Of a DNA stretch of 37,363 bases, positions 25,959 through 34,626 are shown one piece after another. Every line of letters starts with the position of its first letter. Within the stretch, counting starts at the first letter, position 1. Source of the stretch: an uncultured Lachnospiraceae bacterium (GTDB lineage Bacteria > Bacillota > Clostridia > Lachnospirales > Lachnospiraceae); the NCBI GenBank assembly GCA_947629565.1, contig CANREG010000025.1, positions 1 through 37,363 on the forward strand, in the 5' to 3' direction. The notes beneath the pieces are model-generated. The model was not told the origin of the DNA. It saw nothing but the letters and a program-made list of their open reading frames with translations, and ran no database searches. The translations under genes and the position numbers were made by a program.

Positions 25959-25989
25959 ATGAATGATTAAACGAAAGGAGAGATTAACA

Positions 25990-26808
25990 ATGGGGAAAAA
26001 TTTATGTGATTATGAGATGTATTTGTATCAACAGGAGCTTGCCGATGCCACCATAGCCCTGTATATGAGGGAGGCGGGAAAGTTTATTCAATTTGCCGGA
26101 GACAGGAAGATGAATAAGGCGCTGGTATTGGAATACAAAAAGTACATGGCCGGACAAAAACTGGCAGCGACTACAATTAATCAGCGTATAATTGCGGTCA
26201 ACCGTTATCTGCGGTTTGGCGGATATGAAGATTGTGTAATTAAGACAAATCGGATCCAGCGACATGTGAGTATTGATAATGTGATTACAGACAACGACTA
26301 TATTTGTCTTTTGGAATACGCAAAAAAAACAGGAGATGATAAATATTTTGCTATTATGAAAACTTTGGCGCTGACGGGAATCCGGGTAAGCGAGCTGCGT
26401 TACATTACTGTGGAGAATATGGAAACCGGTCATATTGTTGTGGAGAATAAAGGGAAAATACGGGAGGTGTTTTTGCCGGATAGCCTGATTAAGATATTAA
26501 AAGATTATTGTGAAAATCATCATATTACGACAGGCAGTGTATTTCAAGGTAATAAGGGGGCGCCTATCAGCCGAATGGCGGTATGGAATAAATTAAACCG
26601 TATGGCGGAAAAAGCGGGGGTGGACAGAAAGAAAGGGCATCCCCATGGGTTTCGGCATTACTTTGCCCTTCTGTATATGAAGAATTATTCTAATCTGTTT
26701 GAACTGGCAGATATCTTAGGACATTCCAGTCTGGAAACCACCAGAATATATGCAGCGGCTACTGTGGAGGATAAGAGAAGGCGAATGGATCAGTTGGATC
26801 GGGGTTGA
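25990..26808 (+). CDS. Tyrosine recombinase (integrase), probable DNA invertase
   Basis: 272 aa from the ATG at 25990, eight bases after GAAAGGAG. The N-terminal SAM-like core-binding domain spans residues 1-90. The C-terminal catalytic domain shows the full tyrosine recombinase set: R132 in LTGIRVSELR, a beta-hairpin Lys at about 154-156 in VENKGKIREV, H219 and R222 in HPHGFRHYF, H245 in LGHSSLETT and the nucleophile Y254 in TRIYAAA. It is shorter than phage integrases, with no arm-binding domain, as in XerC/D and in the invertases that flip promoters in Clostridia and Bacteroidetes. The stop codon is only three bases before an 18-bp inverted repeat. There are no phage or ICE genes nearby. 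Its job is most likely to flip the adjacent 141-bp segment. Confidence 0.88.
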   Translation: MGKNLCDYEMYLYQQELADATIALYMREAGKFIQFAGDRKMNKALVLEYKKYMAGQKLAATTINQRIIAVNRYLRFGGYEDCVIKTNRIQRHVSIDNVITDNDYICLLEYAKKTGDDKYFAIMKTLALTGIRVSELRYITVENMETGHIVVENKGKIREVFLPDSLIKILKDYCENHHITTGSVFQGNKGAPISRMAVWNKLNRMAEKAGVDRKKGHPHGFRHYFALLYMKNYSNLFELADILGHSSLETTRIYAAATVEDKRRRMDQLDRG

Positions 26809-26809
26809 C

Positions 26810-26838
26810 GAAATACAATATTCTGTAAAGAATGTCAA
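26810..26838 (-). promoter_or_regulatory. Outward antisense promoter in the drawn orientation
   Basis: On the minus strand, TTGACA (26838-26833), 17 bases and TATTTC (26815-26810) point into the 3' end of the recombinase gene. The -10 is poorer than the TATTCT available on the other side, so this may be weak. It would give an antisense RNA to the recombinase only in the OFF orientation. Confidence 0.4.
26812..26829 (+). repeat. Left inverted repeat (IRL) of invertible segment
   Basis: AATACAATATTCTGTAAA is the perfect reverse complement of 26971-26988, and the match extends to 21 bp with one mismatch (26812-26832 against 26968-26988). Each repeat has an internal partial dyad, TACA-ATATTC-TGTA: two arms around a 6-bp centre, as in Xer-type crossover sites. 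Confidence 0.9.
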
Positions 26839-26970
26839 GTGGTTTATTTGATATTTTTTCCTTTTTTATGGAAGTTTATTTAAATATAGGCCAGAAAGCC
26901 GTTAAATACATATGTATAATATTTAATATTACTATATACGAGATATTTAGTAAATAATACAAACTGCTTT

Positions 26971-26988
26971 TTTACAGAATATTGTATT
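26971..26988 (-). repeat. Right inverted repeat (IRR) of invertible segment
   Basis: TTTACAGAATATTGTATT is the exact inverse of 26812-26829. Its last four bases (TATT) plus the outside CT form the TATTCT -10 hexamer used after inversion, with the start site expected near 26997, about 48 bases before the first gene. Confidence 0.9.
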
Positions 26989-27044
26989 CTGTATCATGTA
27001 ACATAAAACACCGTCCTTAAGGGACACATAGAAAGGAGAAAGCT

Positions 27045-27593
27045 ATGGCGAGTACAGTAAATCCAATAAGTGTCAATGTGGGAATTGATTTTTCTCTGTT
27101 AACGACGAAACTTCATGCTGTGTATGAAAAAAGAGAAGCAGGGGAATATGCAGTTTTACTGGCACCCTCAGAATCGACGGCGGATAAAGGCGTTTCCATG
27201 AAAGCGGCAATTGAAGATATCAAGAAATTGATAAATGGGGTAGACAAGGAGGCAGATACCAGCCAGATGGAAACGGATATGCAGAAGGAGTTATCGAGAT
27301 TAGGAGATGAGCAAGCAAATGGTTTTAATTTTGATAACTTGGTGGTCAAGCTCAGTATGGCCTATCTGTATATTAGTAAAACGGGGGAGAATTCCACTGT
27401 AGAGTATGCATTTCAACTGCAAATCATAACAGAGGGCGTAATACCTAAAGAAATTAAGGGATTAATTGACGTTGATACTATTTCCATTTCTATATGGAAT
27501 ACCCAACGGAAAAGAATCACTGAACAAATGGGATTGGTATCTGTTAATGAATACCTGGGGATTTCTAAGCAGGAGACGGAACCGGTAGAATAG
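27045..27593 (+). CDS. Hypothetical protein, first gene of the switched operon
   Basis: 182 aa, not recognised. The start follows GAAAGGAGAAAGCT. There is no signal peptide or membrane segment. The N-terminal 50 residues look beta-rich, residues about 50-100 are helical and charged (AAIEDIKKLINGVDKEAD...), and a beta-rich part follows (LVVKLSMAYLYISKTGENSTVEYAFQLQIITEG). It is the gene nearest the invertible promoter, 56 bases after IRR, and lies 43 bases before the 1061-aa gene, so the two are probably made together and may interact. Chaperone, adaptor or structural roles are all possible; nothing in the sequence decides this. Confidence 0.75.
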   Translation: MASTVNPISVNVGIDFSLLTTKLHAVYEKREAGEYAVLLAPSESTADKGVSMKAAIEDIKKLINGVDKEADTSQMETDMQKELSRLGDEQANGFNFDNLVVKLSMAYLYISKTGENSTVEYAFQLQIITEGVIPKEIKGLIDVDTISISIWNTQRKRITEQMGLVSVNEYLGISKQETEPVE

Positions 27594-27636
27594 CAGAGTT
27601 AATAAGAACAAAGAGCATGAAAGGGGGCAGGCGGTT

Positions 27637-30600
27637 ATGATAAACAACAGAATTTCCTGTGAAGTTACAATTGAAGGACAGATTTTTCAATGTCCCGCCC
27701 GGATAACAGCCGGTACTCTGAATGGGGAGCCGGTCTATGGAGGTATTATCGAGTGGGGTAATAAACCTGTTGAGGACATTGTAACACGAGTAGATAATAA
27801 AATGAAAGAAAACCTTGGGGATTACATGAATGGTCTGCTCCCGGCCTGCGCTCCGAACGAACTGGGATTTTGCTACCGCAAAGGAATAACAATAATTGAG
27901 GTAAAGGAAGAAGGTGTGTGTTTTAAGCTGGCAAAAGCAGGTGAAGGAGGCGCATTGTTATTTTCTTTTAAAAGAGAAACAGCTGCAGGACAGCAAAACT
28001 CACTATTGGGGGAGATAATAAATGCCGCCGCAGATTTTTTTGGGCTTCAGAAGTTGTTTTTCTATGGACAATCAGGAAAACGGTATCTGCTTCCACAGAT
28101 AAAACCAGAGGAAATCAATATTGATAATGTCCCGGAACTTTTAAAAAATTCCAGTTTTTTTGTCTATACGCACTTTGATTTTTCTGGGGAGAGTATTTTT
28201 ATAAAAAGTGTCCGGACACTGTTTGGACTAACGGAAACAGATATTTTTATTGGCAAAGGCCAAGAGGGAATTGCCTGTGTATTGACCATTCCCACTGTTG
28301 AGAATAGCATTTTAAAAAGTGAAAATCTATATATGGTAATGGTGACTGGAAAGAATCTGAAATTTGGATTAAAGGGAGAGTTTACATTTTCTTTTTTATC
28401 GGCAATGACCTTTAAGACAGATTGTATGGTTTCGGCAGATGGTTTTGAATTTGAAGCGATAGCTGTTGTTAAAGCCCCTGTTCCGCTGTTTGGACCGTTT
28501 AAGCTTGGGGATACCTGTCTGATGATAAAGACAGGGCGAGGTTTAACCTTTGGTATGTATGTAGATTTATGCATAGGCAAGCTAAAAATATTTGGAGCAA
28601 TTATGTTGGAAAATCAGGGTTCTGTTATACAACTGGATCTTTTATCAGCGGCTTTTACTGATATTTCCATATTGGATTTGGTGGATAACCTGTTAATGGT
28701 GAATACAACGGATAAAAAAGATATAAGAGATAAGATAGACTTTATTAAGATTTTAGGACTGCATTTTCAGGAAATGGAGTTATTTGACCGGAATATGATT
28801 CAGCAAAAAGATATTACGGGGATTGTGAATCATTTTAATACACAGGCAAAAAGTAAAGAGTTCCAATTAGACGCTTCCCGGGTGAGGCTTACTTCCTTGC
28901 AGGGAGGAATAGAACTGACGGACTTAAAGAGGATGCGGCACTATTATATAAATTCTTCCGGAACCATACAGTTACAGGCCCAATTTTATTATGCGAGCAC
29001 CGATACAGAATTGGGAGATTACACCATAAAAAAAGGAATTTTTATCTGTGGTATACTGGACTTGTTTGGAAAAAAATTTGAGGTATTATTTTCATTTAAT
29101 GAATCAGAGGGACTGCTGGCCTATGCAAAGATTCCCGAGATAGATTTAAAATTTTTAAAAATAGGCCCGTCCTCTTTTAACGATAAGAATCCGAAACAGC
29201 TTCCTCTTGAAGAACACAGTATATTAAAACAGTTTATTAATTATGAGCAGGATGGGATGGTGTTTTTCCTGTCAGCCAGAAAAAATAATATTTCTTTTTA
29301 TTTCGACGGTGGAATAGATATAGTGGGATTACTTCAAGTGGATGCCAGAATAGTTTTTTGCAACGGATCAGTATCTGTTGATTTGCAGACGGAATGGCTT
29401 GATATTTTAGAGATTCGGCTGCAGCTTAAAGTGGATTATCAAAAATTCACAAAAGGTGAATTTGAGTTTTATCTGTCTATTGACACTTCCAAACTGAAAG
29501 AGAAACTGACGGCGGTTACTCAAAGAATTGATACCGCCATTGGAAAACTGCGGGAAAAAATTGACAATGCCAACAGAGAAATTGACCAGGCGCAGGCCCA
29601 TGTCAATGAGTTATATAGGCAGATAGAAGATTTGGATCGAAAAATTGCAAATTGCTGTGATGCCATTAACCATGCAAGCCTGTGGAAAAAGGCGTTTGTA
29701 GCCATCGCAAAAGGAATTGAAATCGGAGCCTATGAGGTGGCCAAGGCCGGAGTTTATGCGGCGATTGGCGTTGCTACGGCGGCTTTAGAGGTGGCAAGGG
29801 GAGCGCTCAAGCTGGGGGGTGAGGTCAGCGAAGGAGTAATGCAGGCGGTAAAAGGAGTAATACAGGGCGCTATGGCGATATTCTATCTGAACAAAATAGA
29901 ATTAAGGGTAGACGCAGACTCAAACAAGAAATGTTTTCAGGCTAGTATTAGCTTTACAGCATTGGGAAAAACCTATAATTATGATACTGAAATCGGAATG
30001 GATGCTCTGGAGAAATCTCCGGATAATGCCTTGTCAGACAGTATTAATAAAGAACTGGAACCCGATTTAAAAAATTTGGAAAGTACGGCTTCCAGAAGCA
30101 ATTGGAAAAAATATCGGCACGAAAGTTATACCATAGAGCAGAATTGCAGCAGGCTTGAAGAAGCGAATAGTCAGATGGCGGCATCTGTACATTTATTACA
30201 ATATATGCAAAATGCATATATCGATGAATATCATGTGGTAGATGGAAGCTTTGACGAAATGAATGTGTCCCTGAGGGGCGCTCTTGCGGATGCAGAAAAT
30301 ATTATGGCCGCAGGGACATGCGTCGGCGATGTGGAAAAATTGTCATGTGCTATGGACGGCTTAAGGGACAGTGTGAGAGACAGGGAAGAAAAGGGGGTGT
30401 ATCGCGATGAGGAACTAAATCAGATAAAGGATGTTTTATCAGATTATGATCAGGCAAGAATTTTGTATGACAAGGTGTCAGACAGCATGCGTGCTATGCA
30501 GGAACAGCAGGAACTAATGAAGCAGCATTGCAATAGCATAAAAACAAAGGGCTCTGAGGGAGATGTGGTTGTAGAGCAGACAAATATGGATGCAGACCGC

Positions 30601-30822
30601 CTAATGAATAAGATAGAGGAGCAGATGTATAAAGATTTCCCTGTGGATCGAAGCGGAGCGAATTTTATAAATTTATCCAGAGAACCGCTTATCAGGCAAT
30701 GTTTTGAGGAAGCGGAAAAGAGGAGAGGAGCTGTACCTTCCGACCAGATTCTTCGCATGCGGGACAGCAGCAGGAAGGGAAATTATAAAATTAGATTACA
30801 AAAAATGGTTGAAAATCAATAG
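27637..30822 (+). CDS. Large beta-rich, coiled-coil, hydrophobic-helix protein of unknown function
   Basis: 1061 aa, not recognised as a named family. No signal peptide is present. Residues about 1-610 alternate hydrophobic and polar residues in many predicted beta strands with recurrent short blocks (for example FKLGDTCLMIKTGRGLTFGMYVD), suggesting a long beta-structure. Residues about 615-675 form a coiled coil (KEKLTAVTQRIDTAIGKLREK...). Residues about 685-755 are Ala/Gly/Val-rich and hydrophobic (AIGVATAALEVARGALKLGGEV), able to make amphipathic or membrane-inserting helices. After another beta part, the last 250 residues are mostly helical and charged. The ribosome site is AAGGGGGC. The architecture recalls pore- or tail-forming toxin components, but that is an inference. 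It lies between the 182-aa gene and a protease. Confidence 0.8.
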   Translation: MINNRISCEVTIEGQIFQCPARITAGTLNGEPVYGGIIEWGNKPVEDIVTRVDNKMKENLGDYMNGLLPACAPNELGFCYRKGITIIEVKEEGVCFKLAKAGEGGALLFSFKRETAAGQQNSLLGEIINAAADFFGLQKLFFYGQSGKRYLLPQIKPEEINIDNVPELLKNSSFFVYTHFDFSGESIFIKSVRTLFGLTETDIFIGKGQEGIACVLTIPTVENSILKSENLYMVMVTGKNLKFGLKGEFTFSFLSAMTFKTDCMVSADGFEFEAIAVVKAPVPLFGPFKLGDTCLMIKTGRGLTFGMYVDLCIGKLKIFGAIMLENQGSVIQLDLLSAAFTDISILDLVDNLLMVNTTDKKDIRDKIDFIKILGLHFQEMELFDRNMIQQKDITGIVNHFNTQAKSKEFQLDASRVRLTSLQGGIELTDLKRMRHYYINSSGTIQLQAQFYYASTDTELGDYTIKKGIFICGILDLFGKKFEVLFSFNESEGLLAYAKIPEIDLKFLKIGPSSFNDKNPKQLPLEEHSILKQFINYEQDGMVFFLSARKNNISFYFDGGIDIVGLLQVDARIVFCNGSVSVDLQTEWLDILEIRLQLKVDYQKFTKGEFEFYLSIDTSKLKEKLTAVTQRIDTAIGKLREKIDNANREIDQAQAHVNELYRQIEDLDRKIANCCDAINHASLWKKAFVAIAKGIEIGAYEVAKAGVYAAIGVATAALEVARGALKLGGEVSEGVMQAVKGVIQGAMAIFYLNKIELRVDADSNKKCFQASISFTALGKTYNYDTEIGMDALEKSPDNALSDSINKELEPDLKNLESTASRSNWKKYRHESYTIEQNCSRLEEANSQMAASVHLLQYMQNAYIDEYHVVDGSFDEMNVSLRGALADAENIMAAGTCVGDVEKLSCAMDGLRDSVRDREEKGVYRDEELNQIKDVLSDYDQARILYDKVSDSMRAMQEQQELMKQHCNSIKTKGSEGDVVVEQTNMDADRLMNKIEEQMYKDFPVDRSGANFINLSREPLIRQCFEEAEKRRGAVPSDQILRMRDSSRKGNYKIRLQKMVENQ

Positions 30823-30855
30823 AAACGGTCATGAAAGGAAAGGAGAGGAGATAGC

Positions 30856-32862
30856 ATGGATGAAAAAAGTGAGATGAAAAAAAAGAACAAAGAAAAGGAA
30901 AAGTCACCGCCATTTATAAATACAATAAAAATTCTATTGGCGGGAGCAGCTCTGGTTACAATAGGCGCTGTTGTAAAAAAAGGAATTCAAATCCAGGATT
31001 ATCCACCCAAAGATGATAATACGGTATATAGTACGATTTTGGTGTATATGGATGGAAGCAACCTGGAAAGCGATTATTATGCGGCAACGGATGATTTGCA
31101 TGAGATGGAGCAGGCGTTAAGGGACAGCGGATTAACCAATGAAGATGTCCATATTGTTGTGGAGGCCGGAGGTGCAAAGCGGTGGGTTTACGACGCAATG
31201 GCAGATAAGAAATACGGAAGGTTCTGTGTCTCTGCCGAGGGAAGCTATAATGTAGAGGGAATGGAGGCCAGAGACATGGGGGAGTCGGATACATTGGCGG
31301 ATTTTATTAATTACGGGACGCAGTCTTATCCGGCCGAGAATTATGGATTGGTTTTTTGGAATCATGGTTCCGGGCAAATTGACGGATTTGGATGTGACGA
31401 GCAGTTTGAAGAGTCGTCACTTACCTTGCAGGAAATAGAAGAAGGCTTCCAAAAATCGCATATGAAACAGCCCTTTTCCTTTATCAGCATGGATGCCTGT
31501 CTGATGGGGGATATAGAACTGGCTTCTGTGTTAAAGAGCTATGCCCGTTACCTGATTGCTTCTGAGGAAGTGGAGCCGCAGCAGGGATATGATTATTCAT
31601 GGATGAAAACTATATATGATGAGATGCATAAGACACAGGAAGACTTAGGGGAAGCAATAGGGGAATCCATGGTTCGCACTTATAAAAATTATTATAAGGA
31701 TAAGGACTATAAACTGACGCTGACACTTATGGATTTAGCTGCTTATGATGGGTTTCATGAACAATTTCATAAAATGATGGATCAAGTGGCAGACGGCGCA
31801 AATGATAATTTTTACCGAAATCTTGGAAAGAAAAGACTGGCATTACAGGGATTTAACAGAAGCGGTTCGGAAGCGGCCGAGATCATTGACATGATGAGTT
31901 TTTTGAAGCTGTTGGCCGGATTGACCGGAAAGACTGCCGAGTATGCTGAACTGCAGAACCAGTATAAAAAGCTGGTTATATGCAAGATTGTTAAAGGATA
32001 TGTAAAATCCCCCTCCGGGGTTAGCATCTATCTGCCAAGCGGGGCTGACGAGTGGATGTTAAAGGATTTAACTGTATATAACAATATTGATTTTTGCACA
32101 TCATATAAAAATTTTTTGGATAAATATAAGAATTATCTGAAAAAAGAAAGCCATATTCAGTGGTTTGATGTGGACGGAGATCAAAAAGAGATAAAGGTAC
32201 GGGTAAATCCGGATTCCATTGAAGAAATTGCCGCCGCCTATCTGACGACATTTATTCAGCCGGATAAGGGAGGTCCTGCCTATCTGTTAAGTACGGACAG
32301 TGATTTGATAATAAATCGTTCCGGGTATCTGAAAGCAGAACCGGATAAGCAGTATTGGGGAATAAAAGATAAATTTCTATGCATGATTGAGGTTATAAAC
32401 AATAGCGCATACACAGAATATCTGGCACCTGTGCTGTATCGGAGTAAGTCTGGCAGATATCAGCTTTGTACCATACATATACAGTTTGATGATGACCATG
32501 AAGACGGTAAAGTAGTAGCTATTACTCCAGTCGGGGGCAAAAAACAGCAATATGAACTGAAGGAAGGGGATACGTTTTATCCACTGTATCCTTTAAAAGA
32601 AAAGTATGAAGATGATATGGCTGGTATAAAGAAAGATGAAAACCAGGCGATGCAAAATGGACAGACCGAAGAGGAAATCAGGAGTGGCAGCATATATATG
32701 GACTCCTATTATATTGGAGACAGGGTTTCCATAGACAGCATGGAGGATGGCAAATTAATGCTGATAGATGCCAAGATTGAAGACTGCATATTTGGATTTA
32801 TGTTACAGGACACAAAACAAAGGTTGTCCTGCACGGATTTTATATCAGGAAAAGAAATGTGA
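30856..32862 (+). CDS. Membrane-anchored clostripain-family (C11) cysteine protease
   Basis: 668 aa. The N-terminus is Lys-rich, followed by one hydrophobic helix (about residues 21-40, TIKILLAGAALVTIGAVV), so it is an N-in, C-out signal anchor with the protease outside the cell. The C11 catalytic dyad is H170 in FWNHGSGQ and C215 in SMDACLMGDIE. ILVYMDGSNLE marks the start of the caspase-like fold. C11 enzymes generally cut after Arg or Lys and are often self-activated. The C-terminal 250 residues are beta-rich and unrecognised. The start follows AAAGGAGAGGAG. It sits in the switched operon, so it may process the operon's own products or external targets. Confidence 0.88.
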   Translation: MDEKSEMKKKNKEKEKSPPFINTIKILLAGAALVTIGAVVKKGIQIQDYPPKDDNTVYSTILVYMDGSNLESDYYAATDDLHEMEQALRDSGLTNEDVHIVVEAGGAKRWVYDAMADKKYGRFCVSAEGSYNVEGMEARDMGESDTLADFINYGTQSYPAENYGLVFWNHGSGQIDGFGCDEQFEESSLTLQEIEEGFQKSHMKQPFSFISMDACLMGDIELASVLKSYARYLIASEEVEPQQGYDYSWMKTIYDEMHKTQEDLGEAIGESMVRTYKNYYKDKDYKLTLTLMDLAAYDGFHEQFHKMMDQVADGANDNFYRNLGKKRLALQGFNRSGSEAAEIIDMMSFLKLLAGLTGKTAEYAELQNQYKKLVICKIVKGYVKSPSGVSIYLPSGADEWMLKDLTVYNNIDFCTSYKNFLDKYKNYLKKESHIQWFDVDGDQKEIKVRVNPDSIEEIAAAYLTTFIQPDKGGPAYLLSTDSDLIINRSGYLKAEPDKQYWGIKDKFLCMIEVINNSAYTEYLAPVLYRSKSGRYQLCTIHIQFDDDHEDGKVVAITPVGGKKQQYELKEGDTFYPLYPLKEKYEDDMAGIKKDENQAMQNGQTEEEIRSGSIYMDSYYIGDRVSIDSMEDGKLMLIDAKIEDCIFGFMLQDTKQRLSCTDFISGKEM

Positions 32863-32881
32863 GAACAAGGGAGGTTTTAAA

Positions 32882-33649
32882 ATGTGTAATGTATCAAATC
32901 AAGAACTAATATTACGTTTATATGATGTTAAAAAGAAAAAAGGTGGAGATGGAAATAGAGATAGTTCAATATTTGATAATAAACAACTCCACGAGGATTT
33001 AATGGCAATTCGGTTATGGAGATTGGAACATAAAAATTATACGCTGGACAATAAAGTAGACATAAAGGTGTATTGGGGCAAGAGTGACTCTTCTAAAAAT
33101 ATAACAGTACTGGCGTATGGCAACCAATTATGGATTAAGGGGTTCCAGGTAGGTGGGGGTAAACCGGTATACTTTGATAACCTTAATTATGAAAGAGATA
33201 CAAAAACCTTTTCTCTTAATCCCTACGAAGCCTGGAAATATCTGGACACTCTCGTTGAAAAAAATGACGCAAAAAGCAGCAGAGAAGAATATCTGATGTG
33301 TACATTTTTAACGTCAGAAATGGTGAGGAATGAAATGTTGGAATGCATTTTTTTAAATTGTCCGAAAACTATGAAGGAAAGATGGGTTGATTATAAACTT
33401 ATATATCAAAACTGGAAATCCACAGCTAATGCCATAGATAAATTGTTAAAAAAGGAGCAAGAAATCCCGTCGAATTATATAGAAACGATTACGAAAGAGA
33501 ATCTGGAACAGATATGGAGCGATTTTTCTAAAAATAATGATAAGGATAATCCCGAATGTTGGCGCCAATATTGGGAAAATTCTGTTCGGGGTTTTAGTCC
33601 ACAGGTTTTAGACATTTATTATAATTTTTTACAATCAGATGTTAAATAA
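32882..33649 (+). CDS. Ribosome-inactivating-protein-like rRNA N-glycosidase
   Basis: 255 aa from the ATG at 32882, seven bases after GGGAGG. The length equals a RIP A chain. By eye, the RIP pattern is present in order: NQLWIKGFQVGGGKPVYFDN (81-100) resembles the NxYVVGF...YYF strand pair, Y115 in NPYEAWKYL fits ricin Tyr123, the catalytic E146 and R149 lie in LTSEMVRNEM (ricin Glu177/Arg180, SEAAR), and W178 in IYQNWKSTANAI fits Trp211 of the NSWGRLSTAI motif. The residue at the ricin Tyr80 position is W84, an unusual change. RIPs depurinate the sarcin-ricin loop adenine and stop translation. There is no signal peptide and no obvious immunity gene, so export or target is unknown. The assignment is from motifs only. 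Confidence 0.62.
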   Translation: MCNVSNQELILRLYDVKKKKGGDGNRDSSIFDNKQLHEDLMAIRLWRLEHKNYTLDNKVDIKVYWGKSDSSKNITVLAYGNQLWIKGFQVGGGKPVYFDNLNYERDTKTFSLNPYEAWKYLDTLVEKNDAKSSREEYLMCTFLTSEMVRNEMLECIFLNCPKTMKERWVDYKLIYQNWKSTANAIDKLLKKEQEIPSNYIETITKENLEQIWSDFSKNNDKDNPECWRQYWENSVRGFSPQVLDIYYNFLQSDVK

Positions 33650-33671
33650 AAATTCAAAAAGGAGACGAACT

Positions 33672-34238
33672 ATGGCAAAAATATTAAATATTGGATTTAT
33701 AAATGACAGTGTTCATGGCATTCCGATAAATACAAGTGTACAATGTAATGGTAGTAATTTTAAAAGCAGCCCGTCGAGGAATGCAGCCTATGTGGTCATG
33801 CATTATACCGGAAACGAAAAAGATCAGGCAAAAGCAAACGCCCAATATTTTACAGGAGCTAACCGCAATGCGTCCGCACATTTTTTTGTAGATGATAAAG
33901 AAATTTATCAGAGTGTGGCATTACATAATATTGCATGGCATTGCGGCGCCCAGACATACTATCACGGTGACTGTAGAAATACGAACAGCATAGGAATAGA
34001 AATGTGTTGTACGGCAGGGAATTATAAAATATCAGACGAAACCGAAAAAAATGCGGCATATCTATGCGCATATATTTGTAAGCAGCTTGGAATTACGGCG
34101 GGAACAGTTGATACCTGCGTTTTAAGACACTATGATGTAACCCATAAAAACTGTCCGGCCCAGATGGTGAATAACCCGCAGGAGTGGAAGGCTTTTAAGG
34201 AGCTGGTCAAAACTATTTTAAAAAATGGCGCTTTTTAA
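33672..34238 (+). CDS. N-acetylmuramoyl-L-alanine amidase (amidase_2/T7 lysozyme type)
   Basis: 188 aa from the ATG at 33672, after AAAAAGGAGACGAACT; an in-frame TTG further upstream overlaps the RIP-like gene. The zinc ligands are H44 (VVMHYTG), H153 (LRHYDVTHKNC) and C161. Tyr45 and Lys159 fit the catalytic Tyr and Lys of T7 lysozyme (K-x-C). SIGIEMC is also typical. The family cuts the bond between muramic acid and L-Ala in peptidoglycan. There is no signal peptide and no wall-binding domain, so like phage endolysins it needs another way out of the cell or acts on lysis. It is the last gene of the switched operon. Confidence 0.88.
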   Translation: MAKILNIGFINDSVHGIPINTSVQCNGSNFKSSPSRNAAYVVMHYTGNEKDQAKANAQYFTGANRNASAHFFVDDKEIYQSVALHNIAWHCGAQTYYHGDCRNTNSIGIEMCCTAGNYKISDETEKNAAYLCAYICKQLGITAGTVDTCVLRHYDVTHKNCPAQMVNNPQEWKAFKELVKTILKNGAF

Positions 34239-34351: not shown

Positions 34352-34626
34352 GGATTTGAAAAAGGTAGTGAGAAAGAGGAGTAGAAGCCGTTCCTTGCCA
34401 GAGAGAATAACCCGCAGGCTGGAAGGTTATTTCAAGAAGAAGACTTTGAAGGTAGCTTTTGAACTGCATGGCTGAAGGCTGTATTGCCGCCTTTGCAAAG
34501 CGCGCAGGGAGCGTTTGCAGCACATAGGCCATGACGATTCGTCCCCGTTACAGGACAAGATGAGTGACAAATTAAGGTGGTACCGCGGATTTTCGCCCTT
34601 TATCGGCAACGATAGAGGGCTTTTTT
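34352..34626 (+). promoter_or_regulatory. Valine T-box riboswitch leader
   Basis: A leader of about 300 bases before valS. The T-box bulge sequence is at 34574-34588 (AAGGTGGTACCGCGG), followed by a terminator hairpin. The stem I distal region is readable as AGAGAG...GGCTGG near 34402-34424, and the likely specifier is the Val codon GTA at 34452-34454. Uncharged tRNA-Val should pair with the specifier and the bulge, open the terminator and switch on valS. The specifier position is by eye and is the least certain part. Confidence 0.88.
34595..34626 (+). terminator. T-box intrinsic terminator
   Basis: GCCCTTTATCG pairs with CGATAGAGGGC (one G-U pair) around GCAA, followed by six T. It is the regulated terminator of the valS T-box. 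Confidence 0.88.

Follow-up and report, generated by a model that had tools for sequence, protein, structure and literature searches.

A putative invertible promoter beside a tyrosine recombinase gene in an uncultured Lachnospiraceae bacterium and its relatives

Invertible promoters are well known, chiefly as controls of surface structures. In the window studied here (the whole stretch of 37,363 nt analysed, from an uncultured Lachnospiraceae bacterium, contig CANREG010000025.1), an inverted-repeat element at positions 26812–26988 is very probably a promoter that the adjacent tyrosine recombinase inverts by site-specific recombination, and it was sequenced in its OFF form; we put the probability of this reading at about 0.86. 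It is preceded by the recombinase gene and followed by an operon that includes genes for a protease and a phage-type cell wall hydrolase. Further copies of the switch, 20 in total, were found in 11 other genomes (21 copies in 12 genomes with that of the window). The initial annotation had interpreted the element as an invertible promoter, and the sequence comparisons described below support that interpretation.

Parts and geometry of the element

The element begins three bases past the stop of the recombinase gene (ORF end 26808). Its left arm (26812–26829, plus strand) and right arm (26971–26988, minus strand) are perfect over 18 bp and enclose an interior of 141 bp (26830–26970, no strand assigned), as had been annotated base for base; the extended pair is 21 nt long and 95% complementary. 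The left arm carries the core AATACAATATT at 26812–26822, which is common to relatives, and the core in the right arm reads AATATTGTATT (26978–26988). A -35 hexamer TTGACA (CTTGACA in context) lies inside the invertible segment on the minus strand at 26833–26838, where the plus strand reads TGTCAA, ten bases inside of the left core. The -10 hexamer TATTCT of the predicted ON promoter (26985–26990, plus strand) has four bases in the right arm; its last two are supplied by the operon-side outer flank. As sequenced, AACTGC (26962–26967) occupies the -35 place before TATTCT. A virtual flip of 26812–26988 yields TTGACA-17-TATTCT directed at the operon from 27045. The initial annotation had described each of these placements correctly, and some of its wording needs to be narrowed. 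It called the flipped promoter ideal, which is true of the -35 and the spacing; the -10 matches at 4 of 6 positions. It described the two hexamers as unpaired in the sequenced form, which holds in the rightward direction; leftward, the -35 is already 17 bp from a weak -10, TATTTC (26810–26815, minus strand). The statement that functional spacing arises solely after a flip was too strong, since this weaker promoter, directed toward the recombinase 3' end, already exists. On a simple consensus score the flipped promoter of the window reaches 10/12 and the leftward promoter 9/12. Judged by its sequence, the segment carries a promoter that points outward and is completed by the flank it adjoins, less well on the left than on the right.

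Perfect inverted repeats of at least 18 bp with 30–500 bp between the arms occur once in the window and in 0 of 150 block-shuffled windows (longest repeat, 15 bp). When the arms were fixed and the interior was shuffled, the flip made a junction-spanning promoter scoring at least 10/12 in 2 of 5000 trials; TTGACA was placed at the exact position in 1 of 20000 interior shuffles. The paired inverted repeats around a short intergenic segment, together with the promoter placement, are beyond chance, and the annotated claim that the arrangement is hard to obtain by chance was borne out by shuffles that rarely or never reproduced it.

In the proposed mechanism the recombinase would exchange strands inside the core, where TACAATA is the candidate 7-bp overlap. 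Idealised, the full site reads TTAACACAA-TACAATA-TTGTGTTAA and is palindromic except at its centre, which suggests that the overlap is flanked by enzyme-binding half-sites. The -35 would then lie just beyond the inner half-site and the -10 would reach into the outer half-site, making the promoter spacer the crossover site. Inversion would turn the promoter from leftward (OFF, -10 TATTTC) to rightward (ON, -10 TATTCT), and the ON transcript would start near 26997 and run through orf182, orf1061 and the C11 protease, orf293 and amidase genes. Because the recombination site is also the promoter spacer, recombinase and RNA polymerase should be unable to occupy the ON junction at the same time.

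Related switches and their orientation

The 21 copies consist of 19 that were scored together (window included) and two, in genomes G751 and G752, that were read separately. Their interiors differ in sequence and are 140–330 bp long, and two core sequences are present. The recombinases beside or near the copies, where one was found, go down to about 42% identity. In each copy TTGAC[A/T] lies immediately within one arm, and a spacer of exactly 17 bp separates it from a -10 formed by the core and the outer flank. This -35 is on the side away from the downstream gene in all 21 copies, and from the sequence the -10 would be completed toward that gene only after inversion. CTTGAC is found at the same place in all seven switch types compared. 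Both arms carry the core AATACAATATT, one base of which is changed in some copies.

At three loci a switch of this kind precedes a homologous operon: L019 in G739, an uncultured Roseburia (interior 177 bp), L020 in G024, a rumen Lachnospiraceae (330 bp), and L026 in G745 (238 bp). A search with a junction-derived pattern found four paired switches with one common core in G739; of the 38 other genomes in that genus, six have copies as well. One genus (seven genomes) accounts for sixteen of the comparison copies, a count that leaves out G765:C20, G774:C33, G774:C56 and G783:C202. In that genus, copies on the same core scheme precede other operons or a reduced version of the window's operon. In G764 and G776 the L019-type switch precedes a 237–238 aa homologue of the L019 gene that follows C11; orf182, orf1061 and C11 were not found in the stretches fetched at this switch. 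The same switch is followed by the orf182-orf1061-C11 block at L019 and stands without it at L233 and L246, as if the block had been gained or lost beside a switch already in place. Another type precedes a run of DUF6765, DUF2589, DUF4231 and CHAP genes and then a recombinase gene. Another directly precedes a thiol-activated cytolysin family gene (L155:6731–8224), which has homologues in five sister genomes (OFF switch) and whose product has no N-terminal hydrophobic segment. The fourth type precedes a gene without an assigned family.

The copies in G752 (L191:1501–1689) and G751 (L214:1378–1527) have the core AATACTATATT, a 42–43% identical recombinase directly upstream and DUF2589 genes downstream. 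Their -10 is TATTTT leftward and TATTAT after the flip. By core sequence they form a putative second specificity group. Seven loci (L157 on G739:C155, L236, L237, L240, L244, L247 and L249) carry a conserved TTGACT-17-TATTAT-like site with the same core and no partner arm; it may be an ordinary promoter, or a recombinase site standing alone. Other pattern matches, in 13 genomes, were dropped for want of a convincing partner arm. Among the viral-contig stretches, 80 of 104 were examined (L050–L129) and gave three weak partner arms, none convincing. An exact match occurs in 15 genomes of the family; the 14 besides the window's were checked and gave only one borderline candidate, L224 (G193). In the genera of G745 and of the window, the only hits besides already-known copies were matches that appear unpaired, a part of which were checked for a partner arm.

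The promoter reading was weighed against two others that assign the element a different activity. Position 6 of the -10 is T in the flipped promoter of all 19 copies scored together; the leftward promoter has T there in 7 copies and C in the other 12. The leftward promoter might itself be the working one, giving in the OFF form an RNA antisense to the 3' end of the recombinase gene, the repeats being incidental; TTGACA-17-TATTTC does face the recombinase gene in the window, and the same arrangement is seen in G745, G751 and G752. The element is nevertheless kept in G739, G024 and their relatives, where the left gene is not a recombinase, and with the frequent C at position 6 this makes the antisense explanation very unlikely. 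A leftward promoter might also exist alongside the switch and stabilise its OFF form. The leftward and flipped promoters are tied on a simple 12-point score in 10 of the 19 copies, so that the size of the ON/OFF difference is not fixed by sequence alone.

Some Clostridioides difficile RecV switches act after initiation via a terminator or RNA structure. Inversion here might likewise move such a structure and not the promoter, and a terminator-like hairpin, placed to stop OFF-state read-through, is indeed found inside three of the seven switch types. No such hairpin was found in the 141-bp interior of the window or in three other types, while the promoter geometry is present in every copy; we give this explanation very little weight.

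All 21 copies are in the OFF orientation, which agrees with the annotated prediction that the sequenced form is OFF. No ON-orientation copy was found among the 21 copies in 12 genomes, so that inversion was never seen; the comparison across related genomes proposed in the initial annotation bore out the OFF state and yielded no inverted copy. Many copies are homologous between sister species and the 21 are therefore not independent, and most of the titled genomes are metagenome assemblies, which report the majority form. When the collected loci were scanned for ON-type junctions, the only hits were unpaired matches and the OFF junctions of switches already known, which differ from the pattern by one base. 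Since two mismatches could have let ON copies of the G739-C75 type escape this pattern, that locus was also searched for at the DNA level. It was found in seven genomes, in one of which (G776) the assembly breaks precisely at the switch, leaving the copy split between the ends of two contigs. The break fits a mixture of orientations, but the ends are 4–5 bases off the position of a strict mixture, and it is taken as a weak hint only.

The same orientation in all 21 copies and the lack of an ON junction in the searched genomes would also be expected of a fixed element, in which the repeats are binding sites of a recombinase-like protein or the relic of a switch that no longer inverts. We consider this improbable, though less so than the two preceding explanations. 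The interiors vary in sequence and length, yet the cores, the -35 position and the operon-side completion of the -10 persist. A catalytic-type recombinase is kept beside or near the switches, and selection for a promoter facing away makes little sense without occasional flipping. An invertible promoter is the preferred reading.

The recombinase, the operon and a possible role in lysis

The proposed invertase is encoded at 25963–26808 on the plus strand (Pfam Phage_integrase, 3.7e-25); ATG 25990, behind AAAGGAG, is a likelier start than 25963. Residues R141, K163/K165, H228, R231, H254 and Y263 are invariant in seven aligned homologues, and we take this R-K-H-R-H-Y set to be the catalytic residues of the tyrosine family. 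The nearest solved chain is 4a8e, an archaeal XerC-like protein. Close homologues (E ≤ 3e-89) are present in all four genomes with a switch-bearing operon; in the other nine operon genomes searched the best homologue was no better than E 2.6e-28. G745 has a 66% identical recombinase directly upstream of the switch, as in the window, and in G024 the recombinase gene lies between orf1066 and C11 on the opposite strand. No homologue was found in the 16.8 kb of L019 (G739) examined; this genome has one close homologue elsewhere, on contig C75. Two further homologues in G739 are weak (E 5e-17 and 1.5e-11); one lies about 0.7 kb from the C30 switch, and their presence counts against assuming that a single enzyme has sole control. 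In the window genome the pattern search returned a single switch site, so that the recombinase there looks dedicated. From these sequences, several scattered switches with one common site appear in G739 (four sites) and not in the window genome. The window genome encodes two close recombinase paralogues, at G000:C65:12472–13287 and G000:C46:368–1183 (E about 1e-67).

The initial annotation had placed an operon downstream of the element, and gene order and spacing point to one at 27045–34238. All five genes are on the plus strand and are followed by a T-box leader (34359–34603) and then the valyl-tRNA synthetase gene. The first gene, orf182 (27045–27593), has a ribosome-binding site AAAGGAG at 27032–27038. 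Its product had no hit in Pfam; ten homologues were aligned. The AlphaFold model (mean pLDDT 76.6) had no match in the PDB at E ≤ 0.001 and no informative fold. The second gene product, orf1061 (27637–30822; 11 homologues aligned), matched no Pfam family above its cut-off. Its model (mean pLDDT 74.6, pTM 0.49) is predicted to be beta-rich to about residue 600, followed by a long helical hairpin and further helices. Structure searches listed apolipoprotein B-100 first in Foldseek (E 6e-6, rmsd 64) and porins first in VIA (rmsd near 20); with a pTM of 0.49, no fold was drawn from either.

The third gene (30856–32862) encodes a C11 (clostripain-family) protease (Peptidase_C11, 5e-37), which scores 128.7 bits against the curated cut-off of 25.8 and falls far below the cut-off of the NCBI equivalog 'clostripain' (23 vs 550). 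It has an N-terminal hydrophobic segment (hydropathy 1.86 at residue 21), and the N-terminal values of five C11 proteases range from 1.56 to 2.16. The nearest solved chains are 6mzo and 6n9j. The fourth gene, orf293, is an ORF call at 32768–33649 with no family assigned; its true start is probably near 32858 or later, and a gene next to the L013 operon matches it at 26%. The last gene (33639–34238) encodes an N-acetylmuramoyl-L-alanine amidase (Amidase_2, 2.1e-27) with no N-terminal hydrophobic segment and no evident signal peptide in a hydropathy scan. No holin or other membrane-permeabilising partner was recognised by Pfam among the operon proteins of the window. A prophage or phage module was rejected (orf1061 had no tblastn match among 50,697 phage records), as was a known defence system (no PADLOC family for six window proteins).

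Matches to orf182 were found in 4 of 397 genomes of the family, the window's included. The orf1061 profile matched 3 of 26 genomes of the genus (one weak and partial) and 2 of 392 of the order (one weak and partial). As a single query the 182-aa protein found nothing in genome_contigs, and alignment A2 was used for that search instead. Twelve loci with operon relatives were found there, three of which (L019, L020 and L026) have the switch, besides the window. A phage-type peptidoglycan hydrolase is encoded at 8 of 12 distinct operon loci (window, L020–L023 and L025–L027), the 12 being the window and the genome_contigs loci less L029; with L029 kept the count is 8/13. The hydrolase families are Amidase_2, phage lysozyme, GH25, ELLD and an amidase-lysozyme fusion. 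No hydrolase was recognised in L019, and L024 and L028 end too early for its presence to be judged. L029 and L030 have neither an aligned C11 gene nor a hydrolase gene among the genes examined. In a hydropathy scan, all eight hydrolases tested were without a segment of at least 1.6 in the first 60 residues. The repeat was searched for without success in eight relatives, five of which (L021, L022, L027, L028 and L030) have a LytTR gene beside or within the operon. At the four switch-bearing loci the genes scanned, a part of the neighbours, included no LytTR gene. This distribution suggests that the core genes are shared but differently controlled, inducibly in some lineages and by a DNA switch in others, as though lineages had exchanged inducible for stochastic control.

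From the gene content and the uniform OFF state we tentatively propose, as a bold and rather unlikely possibility, a rarely-ON switch for self-lysis and release: a few cells would invert the segment, make the cargo proteins, lyse and release products for kin. The cargo would then comprise the large proteins of unknown family, the C11 protease and, in the cytosol, a phage-type wall hydrolase. If so, ON genomes would never be the majority because ON cells die, which would explain why 21 of 21 copies are OFF. On this reading, one genus would use a single recombinase to control several operons of this kind, including one whose first gene is cytolysin-like and lacks a signal peptide.

Comparison with known systems

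In the literature searched, which covered few subscription journals, we found no paper on this switch family or on a lysis operon controlled by inversion in this way. Within that literature the switch family, the promoter built across the recombination site and the cargo are new. The family is coherent and conserved in position to the base across distant relatives, and it appears to govern operons that encode proteins of unknown family together with a protease and phage-type wall hydrolases. Should ON cells indeed lyse, the family would give a model of programmed altruistic lysis among common gut commensals that is both simple and testable. The mechanism itself is already known from promoter invertons, and recombinases that serve several switches are known from RecV and Mpi, as far as the excerpts of PMC5903667 describe them.

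The element resembles the cmr-type promoter invertons of gut bacteria in being a short intergenic inverted-repeat segment with a tyrosine recombinase and a promoter that is productive in one orientation (PMC8844915, in the portion describing the switch). According to the same portion, the reference genome of Clostridioides difficile carries the cmr switch in the OFF orientation, and the ON start maps inside the invertible segment. Here, unlike in cmr, the -10 would be completed by the fixed flank and the recombination core would form the promoter spacer; the cargo is a protease and a phage-type wall hydrolase, whereas that of cmr is a signalling system (PMC8844915).

C. difficile RecV and Bacteroides fragilis Mpi each serve several scattered switches with one recombinase (PMC5903667, same excerpts). 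G739 is similar, with four switches, one core and one close recombinase homologue; the window genome differs in having one site only and an enzyme that looks dedicated. In that account the RecV repeats are mostly unrelated to each other (PMC5903667). Mpi is a serine recombinase, unlike the tyrosine recombinase of the window. In the gonococcal nap island, as presented in the passages of PMC11798529 drawn on here, napC is reported to be OFF in 86% of strains and the nap genes promote self-lysis. The resemblance is that of genes that are likely phase-variable and mostly OFF. The nap island differs in that its variation arises by slipped-strand events in homopolymer tracts and its effectors are peptides (PMC11798529), whereas the window has a predicted DNA inversion and lysis is a hypothesis.
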